Virus record (IMG/VR): IMGVR_UViG_3300031999_000169
Span: 1-27,108 of that record
Source: a virus
Reading direction: 5' to 3' (one strand)
DNA length: 27,108 nt
In this document: positions 498-24,747 of the stretch, piece by piece
Numbering within the stretch: position 1 is the first letter of the stretch
Layout: every line of letters starts with the position of its first letter
Notes under the pieces: model-generated
Database searches by the model: none
Seen by the model: only the letters and a program-made list of their open reading frames with translations
Told to the model about the DNA's origin: nothing
Translations under genes and position numbers: made by a program

Positions 498-674
498 ATG
501 GCAAACAGTTACAGTATAAGCGTTCAAATCGAGATTGGCACGAATGAAGCAAAAAAGAACGGTGTTCGAGATGCCGTGGTTCTGATGCTTAACAATGCTA
601 AGGCAGCAGGCAACATTGTGAGTGCAACGTGGAATGTGCGTGAAGTTCCAATAACGGAAGGCGGTTCAATATAA
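498..674 (+). CDS. Small hypothetical virion-module protein
   Basis: A 58-residue frame starts at an ATG preceded by AGAGGTGATG, a good Shine-Dalgarno sequence. It reads MANSYSISVQIEIGTNEAKK and ends EGGSI. No family is recognised. The composition is mildly beta-prone and there is no membrane segment. It lies 15 bases after the preceding virion gene and 20 bases before the lectin-like gene, all on the same strand, so it is probably co-transcribed with the structural operon. It could be a small decoration or accessory head protein. The strong ribosome-binding site and snug fit are the main evidence that it is real. Confidence 0.65.
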   Translation: MANSYSISVQIEIGTNEAKKNGVRDAVVLMLNNAKAAGNIVSATWNVREVPITEGGSI

Positions 675-694
675 CTTATTCGGAAGTCTAGGCC

Positions 695-1441
695 ATGGCA
701 ATTTTCACGAATGATTTTGAAGAGGGCGATTTCACAGCATGGACATCTTCAACAGGAGACTGTGACATTGTTCATGTTCCCGTCCATCATAACGCTCATG
801 CCGCACACTTCCTAGAAGATGCGAACACTGGAACTGCTTGTTACGCACGGAAAAGTCTAGTAGCGATAGATGACGTTTACACAAGAGGTTATGTTCGTTA
901 TGCACAACTTCCCACTGCCAACGCGGAAACTAGATGTTTGGCTTTGATGAGTGGTGCCACTGTGAAACTTGTCCAAGCTAATATTCGGGATGATTTTGGA
1001 GATGTGAAATGGACAATGCGCACTTTGAATGAGGCAAACAGGGATGTCACGGACATAACGCCCGTTGTTGACACATGGTATTGTATAGAATTATGGTATC
1101 ATCGCGGAGTCGCTGATGGTGAAGCAAAAATGTGGATTAACGATGTAGAAAAGGCTTCAAGAGGAGCCTTACCTTCAGATGTTGCTGTTGAAAACGTTCA
1201 GGTGATGTGTGAAGCATCGCAAGCAGTTTCAACCATAGATGTCAATAATTACATTGATTGTGTGAAGGTTGATTCTGCTTATATTGGTCTTGAAGCCGCA
1301 GGTGGTCCAACCGTCAAAAAAGGTTCTTGTGTCCCAGCAATGACCGCTCTTTTGACAAAGTTTAGCTCTCTTAAGCAGACTAGGGAGCCAAAGTTTCAGC
1401 CTCGAACCTTTCCAAAATTCACGCCGAGGAGCTTGATCTAG
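695..1441 (+). CDS. Concanavalin A-like lectin/LamG-type virion protein
   Basis: The 248-residue protein opens FTNDFEEGDFTAWTSSTGD, a hallmark of the concanavalin A-like (LamG/polysaccharide lyase-like) jelly-roll found in archaeal and viral surface proteins. The N-terminal Phe-Glu-x-Gly-Asp-Phe-x-x-Trp is followed by alternating beta strands, with TWYCIELWYHRG near residue 127 and MWINDVE near 147, both typical of this fold. The last 40 residues are basic and Pro/Phe-rich (FQPRTFPKFTPRSL) and look like a linker or capsid-attachment tail. It sits between the capsid gene and the head-tail connectors, where head decoration or head-fibre genes are common. Binding of host glycans is an inference from the fold; the actual ligand cannot be read from the sequence. 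Confidence 0.65.
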   Translation: MAIFTNDFEEGDFTAWTSSTGDCDIVHVPVHHNAHAAHFLEDANTGTACYARKSLVAIDDVYTRGYVRYAQLPTANAETRCLALMSGATVKLVQANIRDDFGDVKWTMRTLNEANRDVTDITPVVDTWYCIELWYHRGVADGEAKMWINDVEKASRGALPSDVAVENVQVMCEASQAVSTIDVNNYIDCVKVDSAYIGLEAAGGPTVKKGSCVPAMTALLTKFSSLKQTREPKFQPRTFPKFTPRSLI

Positions 1442-11924: not shown

Positions 11925-11983
11925 AGCCCACAGCCATAAAGACTCTCTTGCTCTAACCTGATAAATCTTGCGCGCTGTGGGCT
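11925..11983. repeat. 10-bp inverted repeat, candidate integrase core/arm region
   Basis: AGCCCACAGC at 11925-11934 and GCTGTGGGCT at 11974-11983 are perfect reverse complements with a 39-base spacer. They lie just upstream of the integrase gene, a usual place for the attachment site of an integrating virus. No tRNA 3' end is recognisable here. The stretch 11853-12090 holds these repeats and the integrase promoter and no gene. Confidence 0.45.
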
Positions 11984-12048
11984 TTCTCTTCACTACCTCA
12001 GCTACCGGACCCATAAGCCACGGCGACTCTAGGGTATCTGAGGCAAAT

Positions 12049-12060
12049 GAATATATTAAG
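12049..12060 (+). promoter_or_regulatory. TATA-like element of the integrase gene
   Basis: GAATATATTAAG about 35 bases before the TTG start at 12091 resembles an archaeal TATA box and would give a very short leader containing GAGAGGG. The match is by eye. Confidence 0.4.
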
Positions 12061-12090
12061 TGTGGTGTTTTCTGTTTTGGGAGAGGGAAG

Positions 12091-13275
12091 TTGAAGGATT
12101 GGCGCCGCAAATATGAGTACGGTGTCACTCGAGGAGAGGTCCAGGCTTTTATCGATGGCAATCTCTGCGTGAGGCAGTTTTTGGCGAAGTATTCTGAGGC
12201 AAGCAAGTATAATTTCAGTCGCTATCTGTGTATGTTCTTTAAATGGTTGAGGCTCCGGAAGAGTCTTGAATTGGAGCCCGCTGAGTTTCTGCAGTTGTTA
12301 TCTGAGAAGCGTCAAGCGGTGTCGGTTGAGGATCGCTGTTGGGGACGCAACCTGGTCCTCGAGTTCACCAGGGACAATCCCGATTTGAAAGGCAAATCTC
12401 ATAGCCTTCTTTATGGCGCAATGTTCAAGAGCGTTAATCTTTTCTGCAAGGCTCACGAGGTTGACTTGACGAGCGCTCGAGGCGTTTACGGTGAGAAGAA
12501 ACGTCGTAAGTATCGTCCGGCTCCCTACACTGTTGCTTTGGCAAAGAAAGTGTTGGCCGTCGTCAATCAACGAGATCGGGCGATCTGCATGCTAGGCCTC
12601 CAGACCGGGCAAAGCGTCAAGCAAGTCCTCGACGATATCAATAGTCAGTACGATTACATAGTACGAATGATCAATCAAGGAAAGCGTAGGATCCGTTTTG
12701 ATTTTGCCGAGCGTAAGAGGAACGGATTTCAATACTATACGTTTTGTTCTCTTGATGCAATAACGGAACTGCAGAAGTGGCTCCCTATTCGCAAAAGATG
12801 GTTAGGCAGCCGAAAGAGCCCTTGCTTGTTCATTAAAAGGAACGGAGACAAATTAACTCCAGATGCCTGGAAGAGCCCGTTCAGAGAAAGGCTGCAACGT
12901 CACGGCATCTACAAAGGACCCTATAGCGTTATCTTTCATATGTTCAGAAAGATCTTTGAGTCAGAGGCGAGCCCTCCAGACCGAGGGATCAGCAAGGACT
13001 ATGTGCGGTTTATGATGGGACACGCCGTCGACGACATCAATGGAGATCAACTGGATATTCCTGGAGGAACATATGACCAAGCTCCCTTCACTCATCCCGA
13101 CGTCGTTGAAAGAGAGTACAGCAAACTGGAGCCCTACCTCAACATTTTTTCGCAGCGGGCAAGCGAGGATCCGGATCTTGCTTTGAAAATGAAGTTTGCG
13201 GAAACGTTCACTCGATATTTTGAAGAGAACCCCGGTAAGGAAGAGAAGTTTCAGGAATTCCTCAAGCGGCTCTGA
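12091..13275 (+). CDS. int: Archaeal-type tyrosine recombinase (integrase)
   Basis: I start at TTG 12091, behind GAGAGGGAAG, giving 394 residues; TTG 11968 would run through the inverted repeats. The N-terminal part (about 1-150) has the helical SAM-like arm/core-binding region (VQAFIDGNLCVRQFLAKYSE). The catalytic part includes DRAICMLGLQTGQSVKQVLD where the first catalytic arginine is expected, then SVIFHMFRKIFESEA with the H-x-x-R box, VRFMMGHAVDD with the Gly-His box, and VVEREYSKLEPYLNIF with the tyrosine nucleophile. The first arginine seems replaced, since 'TGlRisE' reads TGQSVKQ. The protein probably integrates or resolves the viral genome. Its end overlaps the convergent gene by 14 bases. 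Confidence 0.85.
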   Translation: MKDWRRKYEYGVTRGEVQAFIDGNLCVRQFLAKYSEASKYNFSRYLCMFFKWLRLRKSLELEPAEFLQLLSEKRQAVSVEDRCWGRNLVLEFTRDNPDLKGKSHSLLYGAMFKSVNLFCKAHEVDLTSARGVYGEKKRRKYRPAPYTVALAKKVLAVVNQRDRAICMLGLQTGQSVKQVLDDINSQYDYIVRMINQGKRRIRFDFAERKRNGFQYYTFCSLDAITELQKWLPIRKRWLGSRKSPCLFIKRNGDKLTPDAWKSPFRERLQRHGIYKGPYSVIFHMFRKIFESEASPPDRGISKDYVRFMMGHAVDDINGDQLDIPGGTYDQAPFTHPDVVEREYSKLEPYLNIFSQRASEDPDLALKMKFAETFTRYFEENPGKEEKFQEFLKRL

Positions 13276-13735
13276 GACGAGCCCTATGCTTGAGTACAGC
13301 TAGGGGGACCAGGGCGATTGTCAGCATTGCGAAAAGGAGCCCAAGGGGGAATTCTGGAATTGATTGTAAGTCTTCATAGATAATGATAGTATAACTTTGA
13401 GTGTTCGCTGTTGAGATTGTCAGATAGAAAGTCCCTGCCTTGTTATGAATATAGGTTACTCCGTTTGTATTGGCTGATCCGGTTTTGTAGATGTAGGCGA
13501 CATAGGAAACAGTTTCGCCTTGCGGATAGGCAGCAATCAAAAAGCCCCCCATGTCCGGATAGTTCGGATCCGGCGTGTATGCCCAAGTGATCCCCCATTC
13601 TACATGGCTGCACACAAAATAATTAGTAGTGTAGGTTTCTGAGCCGGAGCCATTGAATCTTGTTACTTCTGTCCAATTTGAGGCTTGAACTGTTGAAATC
13701 AGGGCGATAGTAATTGCCACCGTGAAAAGAGCCAA
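13262..13735 (-). CDS. Secreted protein with C-terminal IPEFP membrane anchor
   Basis: The 157-residue protein starts with a hydrophobic signal segment (LFTVAITIALISTVQA, cleavage likely after QA), followed by a beta-rich extracellular part with Tyr, Thr and Asn (TYTTNYFVCSHVEWGITWAY, VSYVAYIYKTGSANTNGVTY), and ends with IPEFPLGLLFAMLTIALVPL and a basic tail KHRARLRAA. The Pro-Glu-Phe-Pro motif before a membrane helix is common on surface proteins of Bathyarchaeia and some other archaea. The only start in frame is a TTG at 13735, yet AGAGGTGA lies about 16 bases before it, and ACG AAA AAA TTC precedes it in frame, suggesting the real start is upstream and that the A6 run carries an indel. A host-surface change in the carrier cell is a plausible role. 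Confidence 0.7.
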   Translation of the reverse strand: MALFTVAITIALISTVQASNWTEVTRFNGSGSETYTTNYFVCSHVEWGITWAYTPDPNYPDMGGFLIAAYPQGETVSYVAYIYKTGSANTNGVTYIHNKAGTFYLTISTANTQSYTIIIYEDLQSIPEFPLGLLFAMLTIALVPLAVLKHRARLRAA

Positions 13736-13828
13736 GAATTTTTTCGTTCAGTTCACCTCTTAGATGTCAAGTTTCCTTTCATTTTAACTTATCTCTCCAT
13801 GCGAGCCCTATGTCCTTTCCACTGTGAG

Positions 13829-13865
13829 TTTAAATCTGCGAGTGTTTGTAGAGTTCTTTCGCAGA
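13829..13865 (+). promoter_or_regulatory. TATA box and hairpin ahead of small RHH gene
   Basis: TTTAAATC at 13829-13836 is a good archaeal TATA box about 45 bases ahead of the TTG at 13878. It overlaps a perfect 7-bp inverted repeat, TCTGCGA at 13835-13841 and TCGCAGA at 13859-13865, which would lie at the transcription start. A repressor, perhaps one of the local RHH proteins, could bind it. Both elements are seen by eye only. Confidence 0.45.
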
Positions 13866-13877
13866 AGGCGTTAGGAA

Positions 13878-14003
13878 TTGTCGAAAATCTATGTATCCAT
13901 TCAAGTTTATGAATTGCTTGAGAAGAAGGCAAAAAAAGAGTGTTCATCTATTTCTGACCTTGTTTCTCGTCTAGTTCAATCATTTGGGCTAAACGCCAAG
14001 TGA
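13878..14003 (+). CDS. Small RHH (CopG-like) DNA-binding protein
   Basis: A 41-residue frame from TTG 13878 reads SKIYVSIQVYELLEKKAKKE followed by CSSISDLVSRLVQSFGLNAK. The first six residues form the beta strand that enters the major groove, and two helices separated by SSIS follow, the exact shape of a ribbon-helix-helix protein. The promoter and hairpin just upstream support it. Its 3' end overlaps the convergent gene at 13948 by 56 bases, so the two messages would be antisense over that span. Autoregulation of its own promoter is the normal behaviour of the family. Confidence 0.75.
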   Translation: MSKIYVSIQVYELLEKKAKKECSSISDLVSRLVQSFGLNAK

Positions 14004-14130
14004 CGTATCCAGAAAAACTTTTGATGCCATCATGTATTGCTAATTTGTCTTTTTGTGATTTGTACTCTTGCATAAGATAGTCGTAAATTTTCTGTTGAAC
14101 CGTGATACTTTTGTAGCCTGGTTTGGGCAT
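13948..14130 (-). CDS. RHH-like regulator, paralogue of the 14264 gene
   Basis: The 60-residue protein begins MPKPGYKSITVQQKIYDYLM. The divergent gene at 14264 begins MPEEGYKSITVREEIYTKLQ, so the two share P-x-x-GYKSITV-x-x-x-IY and are clearly related. KSITV is the DNA-contacting strand of an RHH protein, and the rest is helical (SGYVTWRLAQMIELDEK). The second helix region has an insertion of about 12 residues relative to the paralogue. An ATAAATAG TATA-like sequence lies about 35 bases upstream on the - strand. Divergent RHH genes facing shared operators are typical of a genetic switch. Confidence 0.7.
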   Translation of the reverse strand: MPKPGYKSITVQQKIYDYLMQEYKSQKDKLAIHDGIKSFSGYVTWRLAQMIELDEKQGQK

Positions 14131-14161
14131 ATCTCTTCCTAAAGGTAGATTACGGTACTTA

Positions 14162-14169
14162 CTATTTAT
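14162..14169 (-). promoter_or_regulatory. TATA-like element for the 13948-14130 gene
   Basis: On the - strand the sequence is ATAAATAG, about 32-39 bases ahead of the ATG at 14130, with AGGAAGAG as ribosome-binding site. Together with the + strand TATA box at 14217 it makes a divergent promoter pair. Confidence 0.4.
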
Positions 14170-14195
14170 GGTTTCTGTTTCTTAACTCTTACGAG

Positions 14196-14247
14196 TACTG
14201 TAAAGGACAGTAAATCTTAAATACTGTTAGTACTGTATAGGACAGTA
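14196..14247 (+). promoter_or_regulatory. Early-operon promoter with two palindromic operators
   Basis: Two near-identical 17-bp palindromes, TACTGTAAAGGACAGTA (14196-14212) and TACTGTATAGGACAGTA (14231-14247), differ by one base and have arms TACTGT/ACAGTA. An extra half site TACTGT lies at 14222-14227. Between them TTAAATA at 14217-14223 is the TATA box of the operon starting at 14264. A dimer bound at either site would block TATA-binding protein or the start site. The centre-to-centre spacing is 35 bases. Binding by one of the flanking RHH proteins, giving autoregulation, is the likely purpose. Confidence 0.75.
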
Positions 14248-14263
14248 ACAAGGAGTTAAAGAA

Positions 14264-14398
14264 ATGCCAGAAGAAGGCTATAAATCCATCACCGTTCGCG
14301 AAGAAATATACACAAAACTCCAGAACCTTGCGGAAAAGAACAGTCGGTCAATTTCTAAACAGATTGAATATTTCCTGAAAACTTGGAAGGAGGCGTAG
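14264..14398 (+). CDS. RHH (CopG-like) regulator, first gene of early operon
   Basis: This 44-residue frame opens with the strand GYKSITVREEIYTKLQNLAE, then KNSRSISKQIEYFLKTWKEA. Strand, first helix, a turn at SRSIS and second helix give the standard RHH form with the full DNA-binding strand. AAGGAGT lies 8 bases before the ATG and the promoter with two TACTGT palindromes is 17 bases further up. It is followed at once by the ParB-Vsr fusion, whose ribosome-binding site GGAGG is inside the last codons of this gene. It probably represses its own operon. Confidence 0.8.
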   Translation: MPEEGYKSITVREEIYTKLQNLAEKNSRSISKQIEYFLKTWKEA

Positions 14399-14401
14399 GT
14401 T

Positions 14402-15367
14402 TTGGTTGATGAGTACGATCTCAGCGTTTCCAGCAAAAGTCTAGGCAAACTGTATCCGATTTTGAAGGATAAGACGGGCAACGTGATTGATGGTTTTCAT
14501 CGTCAGAACGCTGATCCTGAATGGCCTTGCGTGACCGTTGAAAGCGTGGATAATCCTGTGAAATTAGAGTTAGCGCGTTTGGCCTCAAATTTCTGCAGAC
14601 GCGAGATTCCTGAAAGTGAGATGCAACTGCGAATCAGTTTCTTGATTAAGAATGGTTTGAAAGTTGAGGAGATCGCTGATCAGACAGGAATCAGCAAGAC
14701 CACGATTTACAAGTACATGCCCAAAGAGATGAAGAATGAGATACGATCTGAGGTCGGAAGGCTCGGTGGCGAGGCAAAGGCTCATAATTTTGCTACGCAG
14801 ACGAACCAAACTGTTACGATGCAAGATATTGTTTCTTGTGACCGCTGCCACGTTTCCACGTCCACACCCGTCGAATGGAACAACCATCAACTCTGCGAAC
14901 AATGCCACAACAAAGCCCAGGCGAACCCTGACGCTTTCAACAGTTACTTCGGTTATCAGAGCAAGAAACCTGAACCAAAAGTCGTCTTAACCACAGACAC
15001 AGTCAGACCTCTTGAAAAATGGGAGGAACGTAAGGCTCACATGAGTCCTCAGCATAGCAAAATGGAAGGCATCGTAATCGCTTCATTGATTGAGTCAGGC
15101 GTCACAGGCATCATTCAAGACCATCATTTCTGTGTTCAAGAAACTATTCCCGACATTTACTTGCCAGCACAAAACCTTGCGATTTATCTTGACGGCGAAG
15201 TCCACGATCATAAACAAGAGCGAGACGAACAACTCCGCGAAATGTTGACGAAGCGGCATGGCGTGAAAGTTCTGAGTTACAGTTATGACTCAACTAGCCA
15301 GAAAGAAGTTGATCGCGTGACGAAAGAAATCTTGGCAGTTGTCAAGACGGAGGCTCTTGATGAGTAG
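14402..15367 (+). CDS. ParB-like/HTH/zinc/Vsr-like nuclease fusion
   Basis: The 321-residue protein starts at TTG behind GGAGG. Domain order: ParB/sulfiredoxin-like part (about 5-70) with the nucleotide-pocket motif GNVIDGFHR at 26-34; helix-turn-helix (about 85-108, EEIADQTGISKTTIYKYM); zinc knuckle with Cys146, Cys149, Cys165, Cys168; linker; and a C-terminal PD-(D/E)xK domain (about 215-321). In the last, IPDIYL (Asp251) and AIYLDGEVHDH (Asp264, His268, His270) match the Vsr/DUF559 catalytic pattern. The first half is clearly paralogous to the protein at 17232. I infer sequence-guided DNA nicking, by ParB/HTH targeting, in replication or conflict. Whether it can bind CTP is unknown. Confidence 0.8.
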   Translation: MVDEYDLSVSSKSLGKLYPILKDKTGNVIDGFHRQNADPEWPCVTVESVDNPVKLELARLASNFCRREIPESEMQLRISFLIKNGLKVEEIADQTGISKTTIYKYMPKEMKNEIRSEVGRLGGEAKAHNFATQTNQTVTMQDIVSCDRCHVSTSTPVEWNNHQLCEQCHNKAQANPDAFNSYFGYQSKKPEPKVVLTTDTVRPLEKWEERKAHMSPQHSKMEGIVIASLIESGVTGIIQDHHFCVQETIPDIYLPAQNLAIYLDGEVHDHKQERDEQLREMLTKRHGVKVLSYSYDSTSQKEVDRVTKEILAVVKTEALDE

Positions 15368-15449: not shown

Positions 15450-15682
15450 CTGACGTGGAAATGCGTGTAATGCGGCATAGTCACACCCAGACGGATGAGG
15501 GCGAGCCTGTCTATTCCGTCTTGTTCACAGACTGGTCCGCAGACCTCAGCAAACAAGGCCTTTCTCAGATCAAGTTGACGTTACGGAGCACTGACGAGTC
15601 GCTTTTCAAAACTTATCCTTTAGGGCGAAGAGTATCCTTGAAGCTGCATGATCCTCAGCGCAAACTTGGTGGGGCCTCTTAA
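15446..15682 (+). CDS. Hypothetical protein, early operon
   Basis: The 78-residue protein reads MRVMRHSHTQTDEGEPVYSV and then TDWSADLSKQGLSQIKLTLR, TYPLGRRVSLKLHDPQRKLG. Alternating hydrophobic residues and the final 'YPLGR.V.l.l' give the feel of a small beta barrel, with an N-terminal acidic/His-rich strand. I do not recognise a family. Start and stop overlap both neighbours (ATGA upstream, TAATG downstream), so it is coupled to the operon. Confidence 0.55.
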   Translation: MTDVEMRVMRHSHTQTDEGEPVYSVLFTDWSADLSKQGLSQIKLTLRSTDESLFKTYPLGRRVSLKLHDPQRKLGGAS

Positions 15683-15804
15683 TGCGGCTGCCGAAGCTTG
15701 TCAGTCGGCTTTTGGCTCCCGTCCTAGTTTGTTTCGGAGTCCTCGGGATCGTGATGGTGGTTGTCGGTGCACGTAAGAAGGAGGCTTCAGATGCAGCCCG
15801 CTAA
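15682..15804 (+). CDS. 40-residue single-pass membrane protein
   Basis: The frame starts at the TAATG overlap with the preceding gene and reads MRLPKLVSRLLAPVLVCFGV, then LGIVMVVVGARKKEASDAAR. It has one transmembrane helix (about residues 10-30) flanked by basic residues on both sides. Its 3' end overlaps the next start by 14 bases. Function is unknown; a membrane anchor or a small effector acting on the host membrane are possibilities. Confidence 0.55.
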   Translation: MRLPKLVSRLLAPVLVCFGVLGIVMVVVGARKKEASDAAR

Positions 15805-17235: not shown

Positions 17236-18383
17236 CTGTTCAGACGCCTGTAGAATTTGCTGAAAAAATCGTTGAAACCCTGGCAATCAAAGCTGAAGAA
17301 GTCGGCGATTTATTCAACATAGACGAAGACAAACAAGGCTATTTCGTAGCTACATTGTATCCGAAAAAGTTTCTGAATAAAGAACAGTTTAAAATGATGT
17401 GCGCTCTCGTCAAGGATTTGGGAGGCGAAGGCTACCTTCAAGGCGCGAAAAGTTGGATGGTGCCTGGTCCTTTGGCGAAAAAGAGCCCTACGCCGATACC
17501 CGCTGCGGGCTCTCCTCTTCCAGGGGACTTAAAAGCAGCTGGTCAATCCACTGCCAAGATCAGTCAGTCAAGCGAACTTCACATTTCCGCTCTCTCAGAG
17601 GACGAAGATGTCAAAGGTCTCAGGGGCTCGTCTAGGAAGATAGGCCGTCTCTATCCCGTTCTAGTGGATCCTTCCGGGAATGTGATCGACGGTTTTCATC
17701 GACTCAAAGCGGACCCTGACTGGCCTAAGTTTACGGTTGAAGGGATCCAGGATCCGGTGCAACTGGCTAAGGCTCGTTTGATTTCTAATGAACGACGGAA
17801 TGTTTCACCGGAAGAGAAAGGCCGATTGCTCCGAGAAATCATTGTCTATACAAATTGGAGCATGAAGCAACTTGCCGAGGAACTCGGTTGGGGCATCAGC
17901 ACAGTCTACCGCTATTTGCCTGATGACTTGAAAGATCAGACTAAAGCAGCCGCTGGGGCTCTTGGGGGCTCAGATTCTGCTCTAACCCTTAGAGCACCTG
18001 ATGGGAAACCTGTTTCAGTTGAAACTGTGAAGCCTCAAGATATCACTTATGGTAAGGCTCGTGAACTCCTTGACACTCCTGCAGGCCGTGAAGTTCTCAT
18101 TGACGCGGTAAAAGAGGCTGTAGCGAAGGGTGAAATTCCAGTTTCTCTCGATAAGGAAGAGCCCTTGTTTGCTGAAGGCATCGCAACGGTGGAAGACGAA
18201 CATGAGCCCCTGGAAGGTTCTGAGAAATCGGGTGTGGGCTCGTTTGAAACTGTTCACCGTCACAAAATTGAAGGCACTCAAGTCGGCGAGTTCACATGCA
18301 CTGAATGTAATCAACATTTCTTCATCGACCACATTTCCGCTGACAAACATAGGCTCACAAAAGTAAGGAGCGCTCCAGAATGA
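17232..18383 (+). CDS. ParB-like/HTH protein with C-terminal zinc finger
   Basis: This 383-residue protein has an N-terminal alpha/beta domain (1-80) of its own, a Ser/Pro linker, the ParB-like core with GNVIDGFHRLKADPDWP at about 152-168, an HTH (MKQLAEELGWGISTVYRYLP), a long variable part and a final C2H2-like finger (CTECNQHFFIDHISADKH). The core is paralogous to the protein at 14402, including GRLYPVLVD, VIDGFHR and DPxWPxxTVE. It lacks the Vsr-like nuclease. Six or more GAGCCC/GGGCTC hexamers fall in its coding sequence, the densest cluster in the window. It overlaps both neighbours by four bases. Partition, origin binding or regulation are possible roles. Confidence 0.75.
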   Translation: MTVQTPVEFAEKIVETLAIKAEEVGDLFNIDEDKQGYFVATLYPKKFLNKEQFKMMCALVKDLGGEGYLQGAKSWMVPGPLAKKSPTPIPAAGSPLPGDLKAAGQSTAKISQSSELHISALSEDEDVKGLRGSSRKIGRLYPVLVDPSGNVIDGFHRLKADPDWPKFTVEGIQDPVQLAKARLISNERRNVSPEEKGRLLREIIVYTNWSMKQLAEELGWGISTVYRYLPDDLKDQTKAAAGALGGSDSALTLRAPDGKPVSVETVKPQDITYGKARELLDTPAGREVLIDAVKEAVAKGEIPVSLDKEEPLFAEGIATVEDEHEPLEGSEKSGVGSFETVHRHKIEGTQVGEFTCTECNQHFFIDHISADKHRLTKVRSAPE

Positions 18384-19036
18384 GTGAACATAAATTCACT
18401 TTGCTTGACTGCTTCTGCGGGATGGGAGGAGTTTCAGACGGTTTTGCGTTTGAAGGTTTCGATGTCATGGGCACAGACATCGTTGACGCGCCTAAGATGT
18501 TGGGTTACAAGCATCATTTCATTCAAGCGAATATGTGTGACTTGAAAGGTGAAGCCTTCAAAGGTTACGATGTGATCTGGGGAAGTCCACCATGTAGAGA
18601 CTTCTCACAAATAGGTCTACTCTATGGCAAAAGATGGCGGAATCCACCTCACCCTGAAAATGGACTTGTTTTGATTGACTGTTTTCTGGACTTTGTGAAA
18701 GATGCAGCCCCTCATTTTTGGATAATGGAGAATGTGGCTAATCTCAAGAAATTCTTCAAGAAGTTCCAACCGAGGACAGAAGGATTCATCACTTACGGAA
18801 AACGCCACGTCTTTTACGGGAACTACCCGCTTTTCCTCATGCCACGTGACATGCGAGTAAAAATCCGTTGTAAAAATAAGAATGGGCACGATCAACCAAG
18901 CATGAAGTATTTGGAACCAACGCCATGTCATAATAGAGCAATTCAGTCGGCGCAACATGCTAGGATTCCTTTGGCTTGTTCTAGAGCTTTTGCCAAGGCC
19001 TGTAGGGAGCAACTCGAAATCGAGGTTTCTGTATGA
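18380..19036 (+). CDS. C5 cytosine DNA methyltransferase
   Basis: The 218-residue protein has the standard motifs in order: TLLDCFCGMGGVSDGF (motif I, S-adenosylmethionine binding), IWGSPPCRDFSQIG (motif IV, with the catalytic Pro-Cys), FWIMENVANLKKF (motif VI, Glu-Asn-Val) and a final RIPLACSRAFAKACREQLEI (motifs IX-X). Motif VIII may be RDMRVKIRC. At 218 residues it is shorter than most, since the target-recognition region is very small, as in some phage enzymes. No restriction enzyme lies next to it, so it may protect viral DNA or mark it. The recognition site cannot be read from the sequence. Confidence 0.9.
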   Translation: MSEHKFTLLDCFCGMGGVSDGFAFEGFDVMGTDIVDAPKMLGYKHHFIQANMCDLKGEAFKGYDVIWGSPPCRDFSQIGLLYGKRWRNPPHPENGLVLIDCFLDFVKDAAPHFWIMENVANLKKFFKKFQPRTEGFITYGKRHVFYGNYPLFLMPRDMRVKIRCKNKNGHDQPSMKYLEPTPCHNRAIQSAQHARIPLACSRAFAKACREQLEIEVSV

Positions 19037-19350
19037 GTGATCGTGGGCTCTACAAGAAAGTGCCTTTAGCCAAACGGGTTTGCAGTTGGATTCACTGTCA
19101 AGAACCGATTGAACGCAACCTCATTCGATCAAAAGATGGGAGACTTTGGCATTACGGTTGCTATAACGATGCAAGGGACACCCACTATCAATGCATAGAA
19201 TGTGTCGCCACGTTCGATGGAACAGAAGTCACTTTCGTAGAAGACAACTCAAGCTTTGGCGATGATTTTCGTCGACAATGGAAACCGCAGTGCCCAAGTT
19301 GCGGCGCCAATCTCAGAAGTCTCGCAAGTCAAGGAGGAATAGAATTTTGA
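19033..19350 (+). CDS. Small zinc-finger protein
   Basis: The 105-residue protein has three or four CxxC/HxxC sites: CSWIHCQEPIERNLIR, WHYGCYNDARDTHYQCIECV, and CPSCGANLRSL near the C-terminus. The first two are spaced like a LIM/treble-clef finger and the last is a zinc ribbon. Between them lie a beta strand and an acidic turn (EVTFVEDNSSFGDD). It overlaps both neighbours (ATGA upstream; its stop overlaps the next TTG). A nucleic-acid or protein-binding role is likely. Confidence 0.65.
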   Translation: MSDRGLYKKVPLAKRVCSWIHCQEPIERNLIRSKDGRLWHYGCYNDARDTHYQCIECVATFDGTEVTFVEDNSSFGDDFRRQWKPQCPSCGANLRSLASQGGIEF

Positions 19351-19844
19351 AACTTCAAGAAGCTAAGCGTCTAGCCTTCAAAGTCATGCAAACCATCGGG
19401 GATTGTTGCGAGAAGGTTGAGGTCGCGGGATCCGTCAGACGCAGACGGGGAGAAGTCCACGATATTGACATCGTTGTTATTCCGAAACCGTTTATGTGGG
19501 GTCGCATTCCGATCTTGATGAGAAGCGAGCTCGACGCCAAGCCGGGCATCGGGGGTCCGGAGCTTATTCGCATGTACGTTCCTTTCGCTAACTCGCCAGA
19601 TGGACAGGCTCAAGTTGACTTTTACGCTGCGAAACCTGAGACTTGGGGTGTCATTCTCTTGATACGGACGGGCAGCACAGACCATAACATACGCTTGTGC
19701 ACGCATGCGAAGGCGTTGGAGATGATGTTAAGCGCGTCTCGAGGCGTGGTTGAGAAGGGCATGGTTGTAGCCAGCAAGACGGAAGAAGACATCTTTAAGG
19801 CGTTGATTTTGCCGTACGTTGCGCCAGGAGACCGAGAAGTATGA
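19347..19844 (+). CDS. Minimal family X nucleotidyltransferase (polymerase beta-like)
   Basis: I start at TTG 19347, 9 bases behind AAGGAGGA, giving 165 residues. The catalytic motif VEVAGSVRRRRGEVHDID (Gly28-Ser29, Asp39, Asp41) followed by a third acid in AQVDFYAA (Asp91) is that of the DNA polymerase X fold. TGSTDHNIRLC later matches the conserved 'TGs..fN..lr' of the thumb. The protein keeps the palm and thumb but lacks the usual N-terminal 8-kDa HhH domain and C-terminal PHP part of bacterial and archaeal PolX. Viral forms could fill gaps or add terminal nucleotides. It directly follows the methyltransferase and zinc protein. Confidence 0.85.
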   Translation: MKLQEAKRLAFKVMQTIGDCCEKVEVAGSVRRRRGEVHDIDIVVIPKPFMWGRIPILMRSELDAKPGIGGPELIRMYVPFANSPDGQAQVDFYAAKPETWGVILLIRTGSTDHNIRLCTHAKALEMMLSASRGVVEKGMVVASKTEEDIFKALILPYVAPGDREV

Positions 19845-21765: not shown

Positions 21766-22200
21766 ATGGCCAGAGCTCCAGAGCAAACCGAACAGAGAAG
21801 ACTAAAAATTATAGAGCTTCTTGGTCAAGGCTTTACTGAACGCGAAATCGCCAACCAACTTGAAGTTGCAGAAGTCACAATCTGGAAGGACATGCAAGCC
21901 CTCCGAACAGATCCCACTTGGTTCAAAAACTACATTCACGACCTTTTTCAACGAGCCCTAAACAGTCTCGATTTGAAGGACCCTGCTGACAGACGTTGCC
22001 TCTTCGCGAACATCTGTCGTCTAGTCGGCAAAACCATGCCCCTCGACGTCAAACTGGAAGCTCAGGGCAAAATCATAGTTAAAATGTGGACTCCTGAACA
22101 AGATGAGCATTCAAACGGAAATAAGGATTCCATATCTGCCACATCCAAAACAGAAACTATTCCACCAGGATCGGTATCGAGTAAAGTACAGACTGATTAG
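21766..22200 (+). CDS. Terminase small subunit
   Basis: The 144-residue protein has an N-terminal helix-turn-helix (about 12-40, RRLKIIELLGQGFTEREIAN then LEVAEVTIWKDMQA), a helical middle (YIHDLFQRALNSLDLKDPAD) and a polar Ser/Thr-rich tail. Small terminase subunits bind the packaging start site with an HTH and form a ring. It directly precedes the large subunit and shares 98 bases with it, read in a different frame; the shared part codes for the low-complexity tail here. This supports the assignment by both domain and position. Confidence 0.75.
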   Translation: MARAPEQTEQRRLKIIELLGQGFTEREIANQLEVAEVTIWKDMQALRTDPTWFKNYIHDLFQRALNSLDLKDPADRRCLFANICRLVGKTMPLDVKLEAQGKIIVKMWTPEQDEHSNGNKDSISATSKTETIPPGSVSSKVQTD

Positions 22201-23341
22201 TGCTGGCACTGGAGGAGGCAAAACCATTGCCGGCGTCTTCGAAATCCTCAGTTGGCTCATCGAAAACAACGGCAGTGTCGGCTACATCTTTGAACCCAGT
22301 TATCCAATGGTCCGACGCATCCTCATCCCAACACTCGAAAGACTCCTTGGCTTCCCAATCGAAAGCAACCCGTTAATCTCAGCTTTCAACAAAAGCGACA
22401 GCCGAATAGACCTCACAAACGGGTCCCGACTATGGTTTGGCAGTCTTGAAAACCCGGAGATGGCTGAAGGCCCTAACATCGACGTTGTACACTTGGACGA
22501 AGGCAGACTCGTCCGACACTTCGAATTAGCCTGGCAAACGATCCTCAGAAGAATACGGGGCAGCGTTCCAGGGCGTTTTCCAACAGGCGCCTTCATCACC
22601 ACAACCCCCGACGCTCCCGGCAGCGGACTCTACCGGTTCTTCGAAGACCCCTCAAACAAGGACCCCCAAAGCAAAGTTTACCGCTGGAGCATCTTCGACA
22701 ATAAATACCTCACAAAAGAATACGTCGATAGCATAGTCCGAAGCCACACAAAAGGATTAGCCGACAGATTCATTTACGGACGCTTTGCTCAGGTCGGTGG
22801 CAAAACCTTCACATTCGACAGCACCTTACACGTACGGGAAATCAACAAGGACCTGCTGAGTGAAGTGCGTTATGGTGTTGACTTCGGATGGACAAACCCA
22901 GCATGCATCCTTGCAGTAGGGCTCGATCATGACGGTCGTATGTGGGTTCTCGATGAAGTCTACGGCAGTCAACTGCCAACTGAAAAACTAATAGAGGCCC
23001 TTCAAGACTTCTACGCTCGCTACGGTCGGGGAAGAATAATCTGTGACCCCTCGGACCCGGAAACTATCGAGATGATCAGGAGAGCCGGCCTCATTGTTGA
23101 AGGCAACAAATACAAAAGGGAAGACGGGATCCGGGAGCTCGGCAGTCGCTTCACAATTCAAGGCGATGCTAAACCTCGACTGTTCATCTCCTCGAAATGT
23201 GTTAATCTGATCGGGGAATTGGCTGAGTATGATGAGAATGTGAAAGAGAATGACCATTGTACTGACGCTCTTCGGTATACAGTTTCAATTCGCCCTCGGA
23301 TGCATGGGCTCGTATCGTTCGGAGTTGTCGGGGAAAAATGA
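22103..23341 (+). CDS. Terminase large subunit (ATPase/nuclease)
   Basis: The 412-residue protein has Walker A GTGGGKT at residues 35-41, Walker B VVHLDE at 128-133, a coupling motif region TTTPDAPGSG, and the RNase H-like nuclease with VDFGWTNPACILAVG, an acid in RIICDPSDPETIEM and a late NDHCTDALRYTV. The N-terminal Gln/Pro-rich 'PHPKQKLFHQDRYRVKY' adenine-binding part is present. It packages DNA into the prohead. The start at ATG 22103 lies 98 bases inside the small-subunit gene; no later ATG gives an intact N-terminus, so the overlap is real. The stop overlaps the portal ATG. Confidence 0.95.
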   Translation: MSIQTEIRIPYLPHPKQKLFHQDRYRVKYRLISAGTGGGKTIAGVFEILSWLIENNGSVGYIFEPSYPMVRRILIPTLERLLGFPIESNPLISAFNKSDSRIDLTNGSRLWFGSLENPEMAEGPNIDVVHLDEGRLVRHFELAWQTILRRIRGSVPGRFPTGAFITTTPDAPGSGLYRFFEDPSNKDPQSKVYRWSIFDNKYLTKEYVDSIVRSHTKGLADRFIYGRFAQVGGKTFTFDSTLHVREINKDLLSEVRYGVDFGWTNPACILAVGLDHDGRMWVLDEVYGSQLPTEKLIEALQDFYARYGRGRIICDPSDPETIEMIRRAGLIVEGNKYKREDGIRELGSRFTIQGDAKPRLFISSKCVNLIGELAEYDENVKENDHCTDALRYTVSIRPRMHGLVSFGVVGEK

Positions 23342-24747
23342 ATAAGAAAAAGTGGCCATGGCCATTCAATAAGTTGCAGGCAAAACCTAACCCTGTCTCT
23401 CCTCCACGTAAGCTTCAAGGCTTCGTCACAGTGCAAGGTCCAACTTCCGGGCCTTACCTTATTTCAAGTTCAGATCAACCTCAAATAAGTGAGACTCGTA
23501 TCCGAGGCAGGCTTGAAACAGCTAAACTAATTGAAGCTTCCGTGAATCCTGCTACAGCCGTGAAAGTCAGTGTAGGCACAGTTAGCGGCGTCAAATACCC
23601 CGATGATTTCAATGATTTCCAGGATTACTTTGATGCATACAACTACATTCCCTACGTCGCTCGAGCGGTTAACATCAAGCAGTTCATGATTTGGCAAATG
23701 GGCTACGGCCTTGAATCTGAAGACGACGCGAGTAAACAAGCCATCACAGACTTGCTAACGAACTTGCAGGCAGACACAGTGTTTCGGGACGGCGCCCTTT
23801 TCGCCCTTGTCTCTGGAAACATGTACTGGCAAAAACTGAAAGACCAATCATTTAAGCCTTTGAACCCAAGTAAAATGGGCTTGAAACTTGACAGTGACCA
23901 GCAAATCACGGAATATCATTACGAACCCAGTTTCGGCAAAGTGGACCACATAAAACCCGCTGATATCTTGCATCTGAAATTCAACGCGGAGCCCTGGGCG
24001 CTCTTCGGCGTCAGTTGCCTCCGCTGTGTTTTACCAACAATCAAAGCCTTATTGTTCATGGAGGAGAAGTTGCCTTGGATTGCTAGGCGCCGTGCAGATC
24101 CAATGTTGCACATTCAAATAGGCGGCAAAGACAACCCCGTTGACAAAGATACTTATGACAGAGTCAAGAATGGCGTGATCAATCGGAAGCCTGGTGAAGA
24201 CATATTCAACGATGGCACAATCGAGCAGATTCAAGAGGTCTATCAGAGCGCAAGTGTCGGCGGACGTCAAACAGTTGAGCCTATTCTTGCTCATTTCACG
24301 CGTAATCTTGTTGCAGGGCTCGGAGTTCCAGAACCTGCCCTCGGATTCGGAGGCACCACAACAATGGCCACAGCAGAATATCAAGAGCGAATCCTAGAAG
24401 CGGAAGTCAGGGCTTACCAGCGTGTTCTCAAACGGTTCCATGAAGCCAACATATTCAGTCTTGTTCAAACCGGAAAACCGGTTAAGATGGTTTGGCGACC
24501 GATGAAAGAAGAGGATAAAACGAGTCTCAGCACCAAATTGCAGGGTGAAATTGAGCATGGCGTCGTAAGTCCAGTGTGGGCCCGCAAGATTCTAGGTTAT
24601 CCCGATGAAGCGGGGAAGGGCACGGTTATGAGTGTACAGCTTGTGCCGTCCATGGCTTCGCAAAATCTGAGTGAGGAACGACAGAAACGGCTTGAAGCTT
24701 ATGAAAAAATCAGTAAAGCACTTGATAAAGAGTCTTCTCACTCTTGA
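23338..24747 (+). CDS. Portal protein
   Basis: The 469-residue protein overlaps the terminase stop by four bases. After a polar start it has YFDAYNYIPYVARAVNIKQF, the wing-domain opening of phage portal proteins, then KPADILHLKFNAEPWALFGV, the conserved 'i.H.k.....pygls.l' region, AYQRVLKRFHEANIF near residue 360 (the stem/clip helices), and a helical crown at the C-terminus. Length is typical. The dodecameric portal is the DNA channel in the prohead and the tail-joining point. The 3' end overlaps the next gene by about 47 bases. Confidence 0.9.
   Translation: MNKKKWPWPFNKLQAKPNPVSPPRKLQGFVTVQGPTSGPYLISSSDQPQISETRIRGRLETAKLIEASVNPATAVKVSVGTVSGVKYPDDFNDFQDYFDAYNYIPYVARAVNIKQFMIWQMGYGLESEDDASKQAITDLLTNLQADTVFRDGALFALVSGNMYWQKLKDQSFKPLNPSKMGLKLDSDQQITEYHYEPSFGKVDHIKPADILHLKFNAEPWALFGVSCLRCVLPTIKALLFMEEKLPWIARRRADPMLHIQIGGKDNPVDKDTYDRVKNGVINRKPGEDIFNDGTIEQIQEVYQSASVGGRQTVEPILAHFTRNLVAGLGVPEPALGFGGTTTMATAEYQERILEAEVRAYQRVLKRFHEANIFSLVQTGKPVKMVWRPMKEEDKTSLSTKLQGEIEHGVVSPVWARKILGYPDEAGKGTVMSVQLVPSMASQNLSEERQKRLEAYEKISKALDKESSHS

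Follow-up and report, generated by a model that had tools for sequence, protein, structure and literature searches.

What kind of control is exerted where two small RHH genes face each other across a pair of nearly identical palindromes, beside an integrase gene, in an archaeal tailed virus? Little is known of how such viruses choose to stay dormant or to multiply, and F55 of SSV1 is the best-defined archaeal case. The locus analyzed here lies in a 27,108-base IMG/VR virus record (the window) that encodes a terminase, a portal protein, and a tail-tube-like protein.

Genes and operators of the divergent RHH locus

The locus and its surroundings contain the following features.

11968 to 13275, plus strand: tyrosine-recombinase (integrase) gene directed towards the putative switch; the Pfam phage integrase match (E = 4.5e-4) is weak and below the cut-off
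13262 to 13735, minus strand: gene 3' of the left RHH gene; the translation has an N-terminal signal-like segment and a C-terminal membrane-anchor-like segment
13878 to 14003, plus strand: third RHH-like ORF, with a TTG start (VAPB_antitox, E = 0.0011, and RHH_5, E = 0.009, both below the cut-off)
13881 to 14386: replaced cassette, non-homologous in the close relative L003/L006/L056, with both flanks aligning (blastn)
13948 to 14130, minus strand: gene for the left RHH repressor (60 aa, GYKSITV strand), a divergent paralogue of the right gene, assigned from homologues and a helix-helix model
14151 to 14157: TACGGTA, a lone operator-like site just downstream of the leftward TATA-like box, on the side of the left gene
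14162 to 14169, minus strand: TATA-like box ATAAATAG of the proposed leftward promoter
14196 to 14212: operator 1, TACTGTAAAGGACAGTA, an exact TACTGT-N5-ACAGTA palindrome immediately upstream of the rightward TATA-like box
14216 to 14223, plus strand: TATA-like box CTTAAATA of the putative rightward promoter, between the palindromes
14222 to 14227: lone extra half site, TACTGT, between the two operators
14231 to 14247: operator 2, TACTGTATAGGACAGTA, an exact palindrome covering the expected transcription start, downstream of the TATA-like box and upstream of the right gene
14250 to 14255, plus strand: AAGGAG, ribosome-binding-like sequence of the right gene, read from the sequence
14264 to 14398, plus strand: gene for the right RHH repressor (44 aa, GYKSITV strand), which heads the rightward operon (RHH_5, E = 2.4e-4, and RHH_1, E = 0.03, below the cut-off)
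14402 to 15367, plus strand: HTH and DUF559 (endonuclease-like) gene, next in the rightward operon (Pfam HTH_7, 2.5e-7; DUF559, 1.7e-5)
22103 to 23341: terminase gene
23338 to 24747: portal gene

The first-pass annotation counted three RHH-like genes in this region, of which the divergent pair was borne out by the present analysis. Both switch genes of the window are RHH-like and not HTH, as judged with Pfam and PHROGs; the best Pfam matches of the small window proteins include VAPB_antitox, ParD_like, and RHH_5, and the right protein matched an Arc-like repressor in PHROGs (E = 3.2e-4). A Pfam search with the left protein itself gave no match. This protein is predicted to consist of an extended N-terminus followed by two helices (pLDDT 72, moderate confidence, from a three-sequence alignment), and it is mostly 41 to 54% identical to its chromosomal homologues over almost its full length. 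Among the relatives, both the left and the right protein of L009 scored above the RHH_1 cut-off, and the L009 model matched the RHH structures of ParD/PrpA with a Foldseek probability of 0.97 to 0.99, but with an E value of ~0.5. The two window paralogues had been described as beginning with GYKSITV; both carry this strand, at residues 5 to 11 and not at the very start. The third ORF, whose 3' end overlaps that of the left gene by 56 bp, is doubtful as a real gene, and it was rejected as a conserved part of the switch because no orthologue is present at the corresponding position in the relatives.

The intergenic region between the divergent genes is 133 bp long. The twin 17-bp palindromes noted previously are exact, differ by a single base, and flank the TATA-like box, and the third half site that had been placed between them is also present. 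In the window, the two palindromes are the sole matches at up to two mismatches (chance expectation at that tolerance, 0.61). Two exact copies were obtained in none of 60,000 dinucleotide shuffles of the 133-bp region, and none of 4,000 shuffles contained twin palindromes of any kind (identical halves; gap, 0 to 10); when stretches of 133 nt were scanned along the window, twin palindromes were confined to this region. The half sites within each operator lie about one helical turn apart. One motif is found at both promoters, and the same strand is found in both RHH proteins.

The product of the gene at 13262 to 13735 gave no match in a Pfam search. Proteins resembling it come after the left RHH gene in L005, L006, and L051, and this surface-protein-like gene is a candidate for the cargo of a lysogenic operon. 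On the other side, the HTH and DUF559 protein is 83% identical in L003 and 71% identical in L004, and its N-terminus is ParB-like, a resemblance judged by eye. The rightward gene block also includes genes for a C5 cytosine methylase (18380 to 19036) and a protein with a DNA polymerase beta thumb domain (19278 to 19844). A short gene at 15676 to 15786 (MRLPK...LLAPVLVCFGVLGI) occurs in two copies in the relative L056 (7481 to 7591 and 10280 to 10385), both with 82 to 86% DNA identity to the window copy. Among named phage records, no close relatives were found: TerL was at most 29% identical among the best matches listed, and the left RHH protein had no match.

Related loci in viruses and chromosomes

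Viral relatives were found by a search with the integrase, which is 74 to 89% identical in seven other viral contigs, and a divergent RHH pair occupies the corresponding position in every one of them. The pair varies from virus to virus, and the two members within one virus resemble each other. When 4,224 divergent ORF pairs were scanned for left-right similarity across the loci, with no RHH model used, all pairs scoring at least 69 were RHH pairs, and the best non-RHH pair scored 48.

The left protein of most of these viruses is extended by a C-terminal domain of ~70 aa, which is missing from the window and L006 proteins. The C-termini of left RHH proteins often contain the motif C-x(2)-C-x(4)-C-x-H or a shorter C...C-x-H motif, followed by AL or AI; examples are found in L009 (1565 to 1951), L105 (673 to 1173), and other left proteins. 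The domain is predicted to form a beta sheet plus helices, and it gave nothing in Pfam and no convincing fold match; it is possibly a zinc-binding sensor. Matches were present in 56 of 257 genomes, many of them to the C-terminal domain and some to the RHH part only. A Nitrososphaera viennensis gene (FR725450.1; L140, 3393 to 3773) combines an RHH-like N-terminus with the same C-terminal domain. It lies in host DNA adjoining the terminase end of Pro-Nvie1, a provirus, and no divergent RHH partner was seen there.

Comparison of the window with L003/L006/L056 by blastn gave alignments at 13358 to 13880 (76% identity) and 14387 to 15355 (84% identity) and nothing between them. The segment that does not align with L006 comprises the RHH pair and the intergenic region, and the structural genes of the two viruses are 92.6 to 97.6% identical at the DNA level. 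In its place, L006 has a different RHH pair, unrelated to that of the window, and the intergenic region there contains another 17-bp palindrome, TGTTACAAGGTGTAACA, immediately ahead of the right gene. Repressors and operators have been replaced together between these otherwise similar genomes, and we propose that an RHH pair and its operators may move between related viruses as one cassette, giving rise to different immunity types. It had been suggested that the palindromes should be sought in relatives. They are absent from the nearest viral relatives and present where a KSITV-type RHH pair occurs; since the cognate RHH pair has changed in the nearest relatives too, we did not take the absence as a refutation, and judging conservation from those relatives alone was dropped. 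Another operator type was seen in L037 (3530 to 3988) and L004 (3465 to 3925), which have QTTVTI or QKTVT strands and four intergenic repeats of the AACGGTT type.

The bases are read by residues Q9, N11, and R13 in Arc and by R4, T6, and T8 in CopG, and by homology to these proteins we take Y6, S8, and T10 to be the base contacts in both window proteins. With the contact positions set by this homology and the strands placed by eye, the mean match at the three positions in 35 loci was 2.14 of 3 within a locus versus 0.58 for other pairings, and the within-locus match also holds in 14 representatives that are <50% identical. Selection of many chromosomal pairs by their left-right similarity biases the chromosomal part of this result, and the fair test is therefore that of the eight loci found by synteny alone, in which the strands also matched within the locus (exact permutation p = 5e-5). 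Exceptions are L006 (one of three contacts) and L101 (none of three).

Beyond the individual locus, a crude 7-mer comparison over all RHH families gave no sign of a general code linking strand to operator (Mantel r = 0.001, p = 0.47), and a strand-to-operator rule across families based on shared 7-mers was abandoned, there being no signal below 60% identity. Similarly, intergenic repeats were assessed in every locus and exceeded chance (p <= 0.05) in only about a third of the regions.

The 60-aa left protein was also searched against 257 genomes of one archaeal class. Homologues were identified in 23 of them, most with a divergent partner that has a KSITV-type strand. Intergenic TACNGTA was present in 18 of 20 KSITV-type loci (window included) and in 2 of 33 other RHH pairs (Fisher p = 5e-10); the 20 loci are not independent, since most lie at a single conserved position in the chromosome, close to an adenylosuccinate-synthetase-like gene (identified by eye), and all seven chosen representatives nonetheless carry the motif. 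TACNGTA was among the top intergenic motifs even when it was not specified. The exact 17-bp operator, with the same half sites and spacing, was found in L105 (1247 to 1263), whose RHH domains are merely 42 and 44% identical to the two of the window, and in L119 (1676 to 1692). The L119 contig additionally encodes a homologue of a window protein, suggesting that it may be proviral. A widened pattern, TACYGTN5ACRGTA, was confined, among 140 loci, to those with KSITV-type proteins. In many KSITV-type loci, a site follows a TATA-like box and precedes the start codon of the right gene, like operator 2, as judged by eye. The presence of an RHH pair at a conserved chromosomal locus indicates that the module is not purely viral, and a conserved, non-proviral pair shows that it is able to serve something besides lysogeny.

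Several further observations concern related loci. In L132 to L136, L138, and L139, the KSITV-type locus is kept in host chromosomes beside the adenylosuccinate-synthetase-like gene and a CxxC protein, and L121 and L122 are without a detectable right gene and without TACNGTA sites. An exact TACCGT-N5-ACGGTA in L130 (802 to 818) precedes another RHH gene of the same locus (around 650 to 769, minus strand), which suggests that a wider regulon may extend beyond the divergent pair. The chromosomal left-gene homologues of L107, L108, L110 to L114, L118, L120 to L122, and L124 have ACG where relatives have ATG or TTG. They are preceded by a conserved GAGGG(G)AAC-like ribosome-binding sequence, with no in-frame ATG, GTG, or TTG upstream, and in L108 a stop codon directly precedes the ACG. 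An ACG start codon conserved in many archaeal species would, if true, be unusual.

A proposed immunity switch and its alternatives

The phenomenon is real, above chance, and broader than the first-pass annotation saw, and the locus very probably represents a regulatory module with shared operators. That annotation had recognized in two repressors on twin operators the layout of a lysis-lysogeny or copy-number switch. Comparison gives good support to a divergent switch beside an integrase, in which two related repressors are predicted to share operators, and a lysis-lysogeny role would fit the location, the cassette exchange, and the gene order; the copy-number half found no support, as described below. 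We consider it likely that in this locus two RHH paralogues form a CI/Cro-like immunity switch and that the archaeal tailed virus is temperate.

In the proposed switch, both divergently transcribed paralogues would read one operator unit, TACNGTA, because their DNA-contacting beta strands (YKSITV) are identical. Since operators 1 and 2 bracket the rightward BRE/TATA, bound dimers should keep out TBP/TFB; a dimer pair on either operator would prevent the transcription machinery from assembling and so silence the early operon. Occlusion of TBP/TFB is the mechanism described for archaeal viral RHH proteins (PMC5569661). At the leftward promoter, a single, weaker-looking site (TACGGTA) would be available. 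The left protein would hold the dormant state, as CI does, and the right protein, whose gene opens the lytic operon, would act like Cro and repress first the left promoter and later its own. This assignment of a likely maintenance repressor and a Cro-like partner is suggested by the gene order, because the left gene is followed by the surface-protein-like gene, which suits a dormancy operon, and the right gene opens the early operon.

A larger picture is quite possible, although we would stop short of calling it probable. Archaeal tailed viruses may have a lambdoid-style heteroimmunity, in which two RHH paralogues keep one reading strand, any change in the strand is accompanied by a change in the operators, and viruses exchange the cassette as a whole; it would have been captured by host chromosomes as well, possibly for immunity or as a standing regulator.

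One alternative is simple autoregulation: each RHH gene would damp its own promoter through the shared sites and so time the early genes, with no bistable decision for dormancy. Such an arrangement is conceivable in view of AFV6, in which AvtR (gp29) and the product of the adjacent RHH gene, gp30, have ~100 nt of protected promoter DNA in common and for which no lysogenic state is known (PMC5569661), and in view of the RHH pair kept at a conserved chromosomal locus without a lytic cycle. However, the adjoining integrase, the conserved synteny, the surface-protein-like cargo in the leftward operon, and the exchange of cassettes between close relatives, as expected for immunity specificity, make autoregulation alone unlikely. 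RHH proteins act as dimers, and the right protein could instead mix into left dimers or tetramers and alter the activity of the left protein with no competition for DNA. Paralogues within a locus are indeed often 40 to 66% identical through the dimer-forming helices, but in three loci (the window, L004, and L105) divergence of the helices (29 to 37% identity) has left the strand the same or nearly so, which argues for shared DNA reading over dimer exchange and leaves the heterodimer or anti-repressor pair quite unlikely.

RHH antitoxins autoregulate through palindromes, and the best Pfam matches of the small window proteins, given above, would suit a toxin-antitoxin system in which the endonuclease-like protein encoded at 14402 to 15367 is the toxin. 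We regard this as very unlikely: no toxin family was recognized beside the pair, and no conserved toxin neighbor was found across the relatives; the endonuclease-like gene is not beside the right RHH gene in L005 and L007 to L011, and in L004 several genes intervene; and the divergent double-RHH layout is unlike a toxin-antitoxin operon. CopG-like RHH proteins control plasmid replication, as would be in keeping with copy-number or partition control of an extrachromosomal form of the virus. Yet neither a replication initiator nor a partition ATPase (ParA) was found among the scanned ORFs of the window, and the operators are limited to one divergent promoter region, so that this function appears extremely improbable.

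If the CI/Cro-like reading is true, a double-repressor immunity switch has been rebuilt from RHH paralogues in archaeal viruses. Dozens of natural variants with predicted operators, together with a virus pair that differs in the cassette and has structural genes >92% identical, make the question of the switch testable without host culture. They also constitute a natural data set on how RHH strands read DNA and on how competing repressors stay matched during evolution.

Comparison with known repressor systems

In the texts returned by full-text searches of open papers, no archaeal tailed virus was described as having a paired-RHH switch, and the words repressor, regulator, and ribbon are absent from the main text of a survey of 38 archaeal proviruses. 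The closest layout is that of the immI region of phage P22, which, like the window, has a divergent pair of related RHH proteins. In P22, mnt and arc-ant are divergent, and Mnt and Arc use different operators. Both are described as small related RHH repressors that control one early transcription unit, one serving dormancy and the other lytic growth (PMC7549136; PMC8022706). Whereas the P22 operators are separate, in the window the reading strands match and the operator appears to be shared. The P22 pair controls an antirepressor gene (ant), but none was recognized in the window, where Pfam and PHROGs matched no antirepressor and the gene downstream of the right RHH gene is that for the HTH and DUF559 protein. 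The window locus also differs in lying beside the integrase of an archaeal virus.

The resemblance to CI and Cro of lambda is one of organization: a divergent pair of repressors is located by an integrase and exchanged as an immunity cassette, and repeated operators between the promoters for dormancy and for lytic growth are proposed to serve both proteins. In contrast to the lambda proteins, those of the window are RHH and not helix-turn-helix proteins, have no cleavable repressor domain, and would act on archaeal TATA/BRE promoters.

Among archaeal systems, the nearest in function is F55 of SSV1, a small RHH protein that binds repeated sites at early promoters, maintains lysogeny, and has been proposed as a CI analogue (PMC5569661; PMC9608457). 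F55 is a lone repressor of a spindle-shaped virus, with no paralogous partner described, and its sites are tandem ATAGATAGAGT, which is not found in the window intergenic region, where the repeats are TACNGTA. AvtR and gp30 of AFV6 are encoded by adjacent RHH genes, with a shared bound stretch of ~100 nt lying between their promoters; AvtR has two RHH units per chain and belongs to a filamentous virus, whereas the window proteins, of 44 and 60 aa, have one strand each (PMC5569661).

The cluster A mycobacteriophages, such as L5 and Bxb1, differ from the window in having a single non-RHH repressor, many stoperators genome-wide, and bacterial hosts. However, their repressors and operator sets change together and define immunity groups, and the replacement of the cassette between L006 and the window resembles the differences among such heteroimmune phages (PMC6550527).
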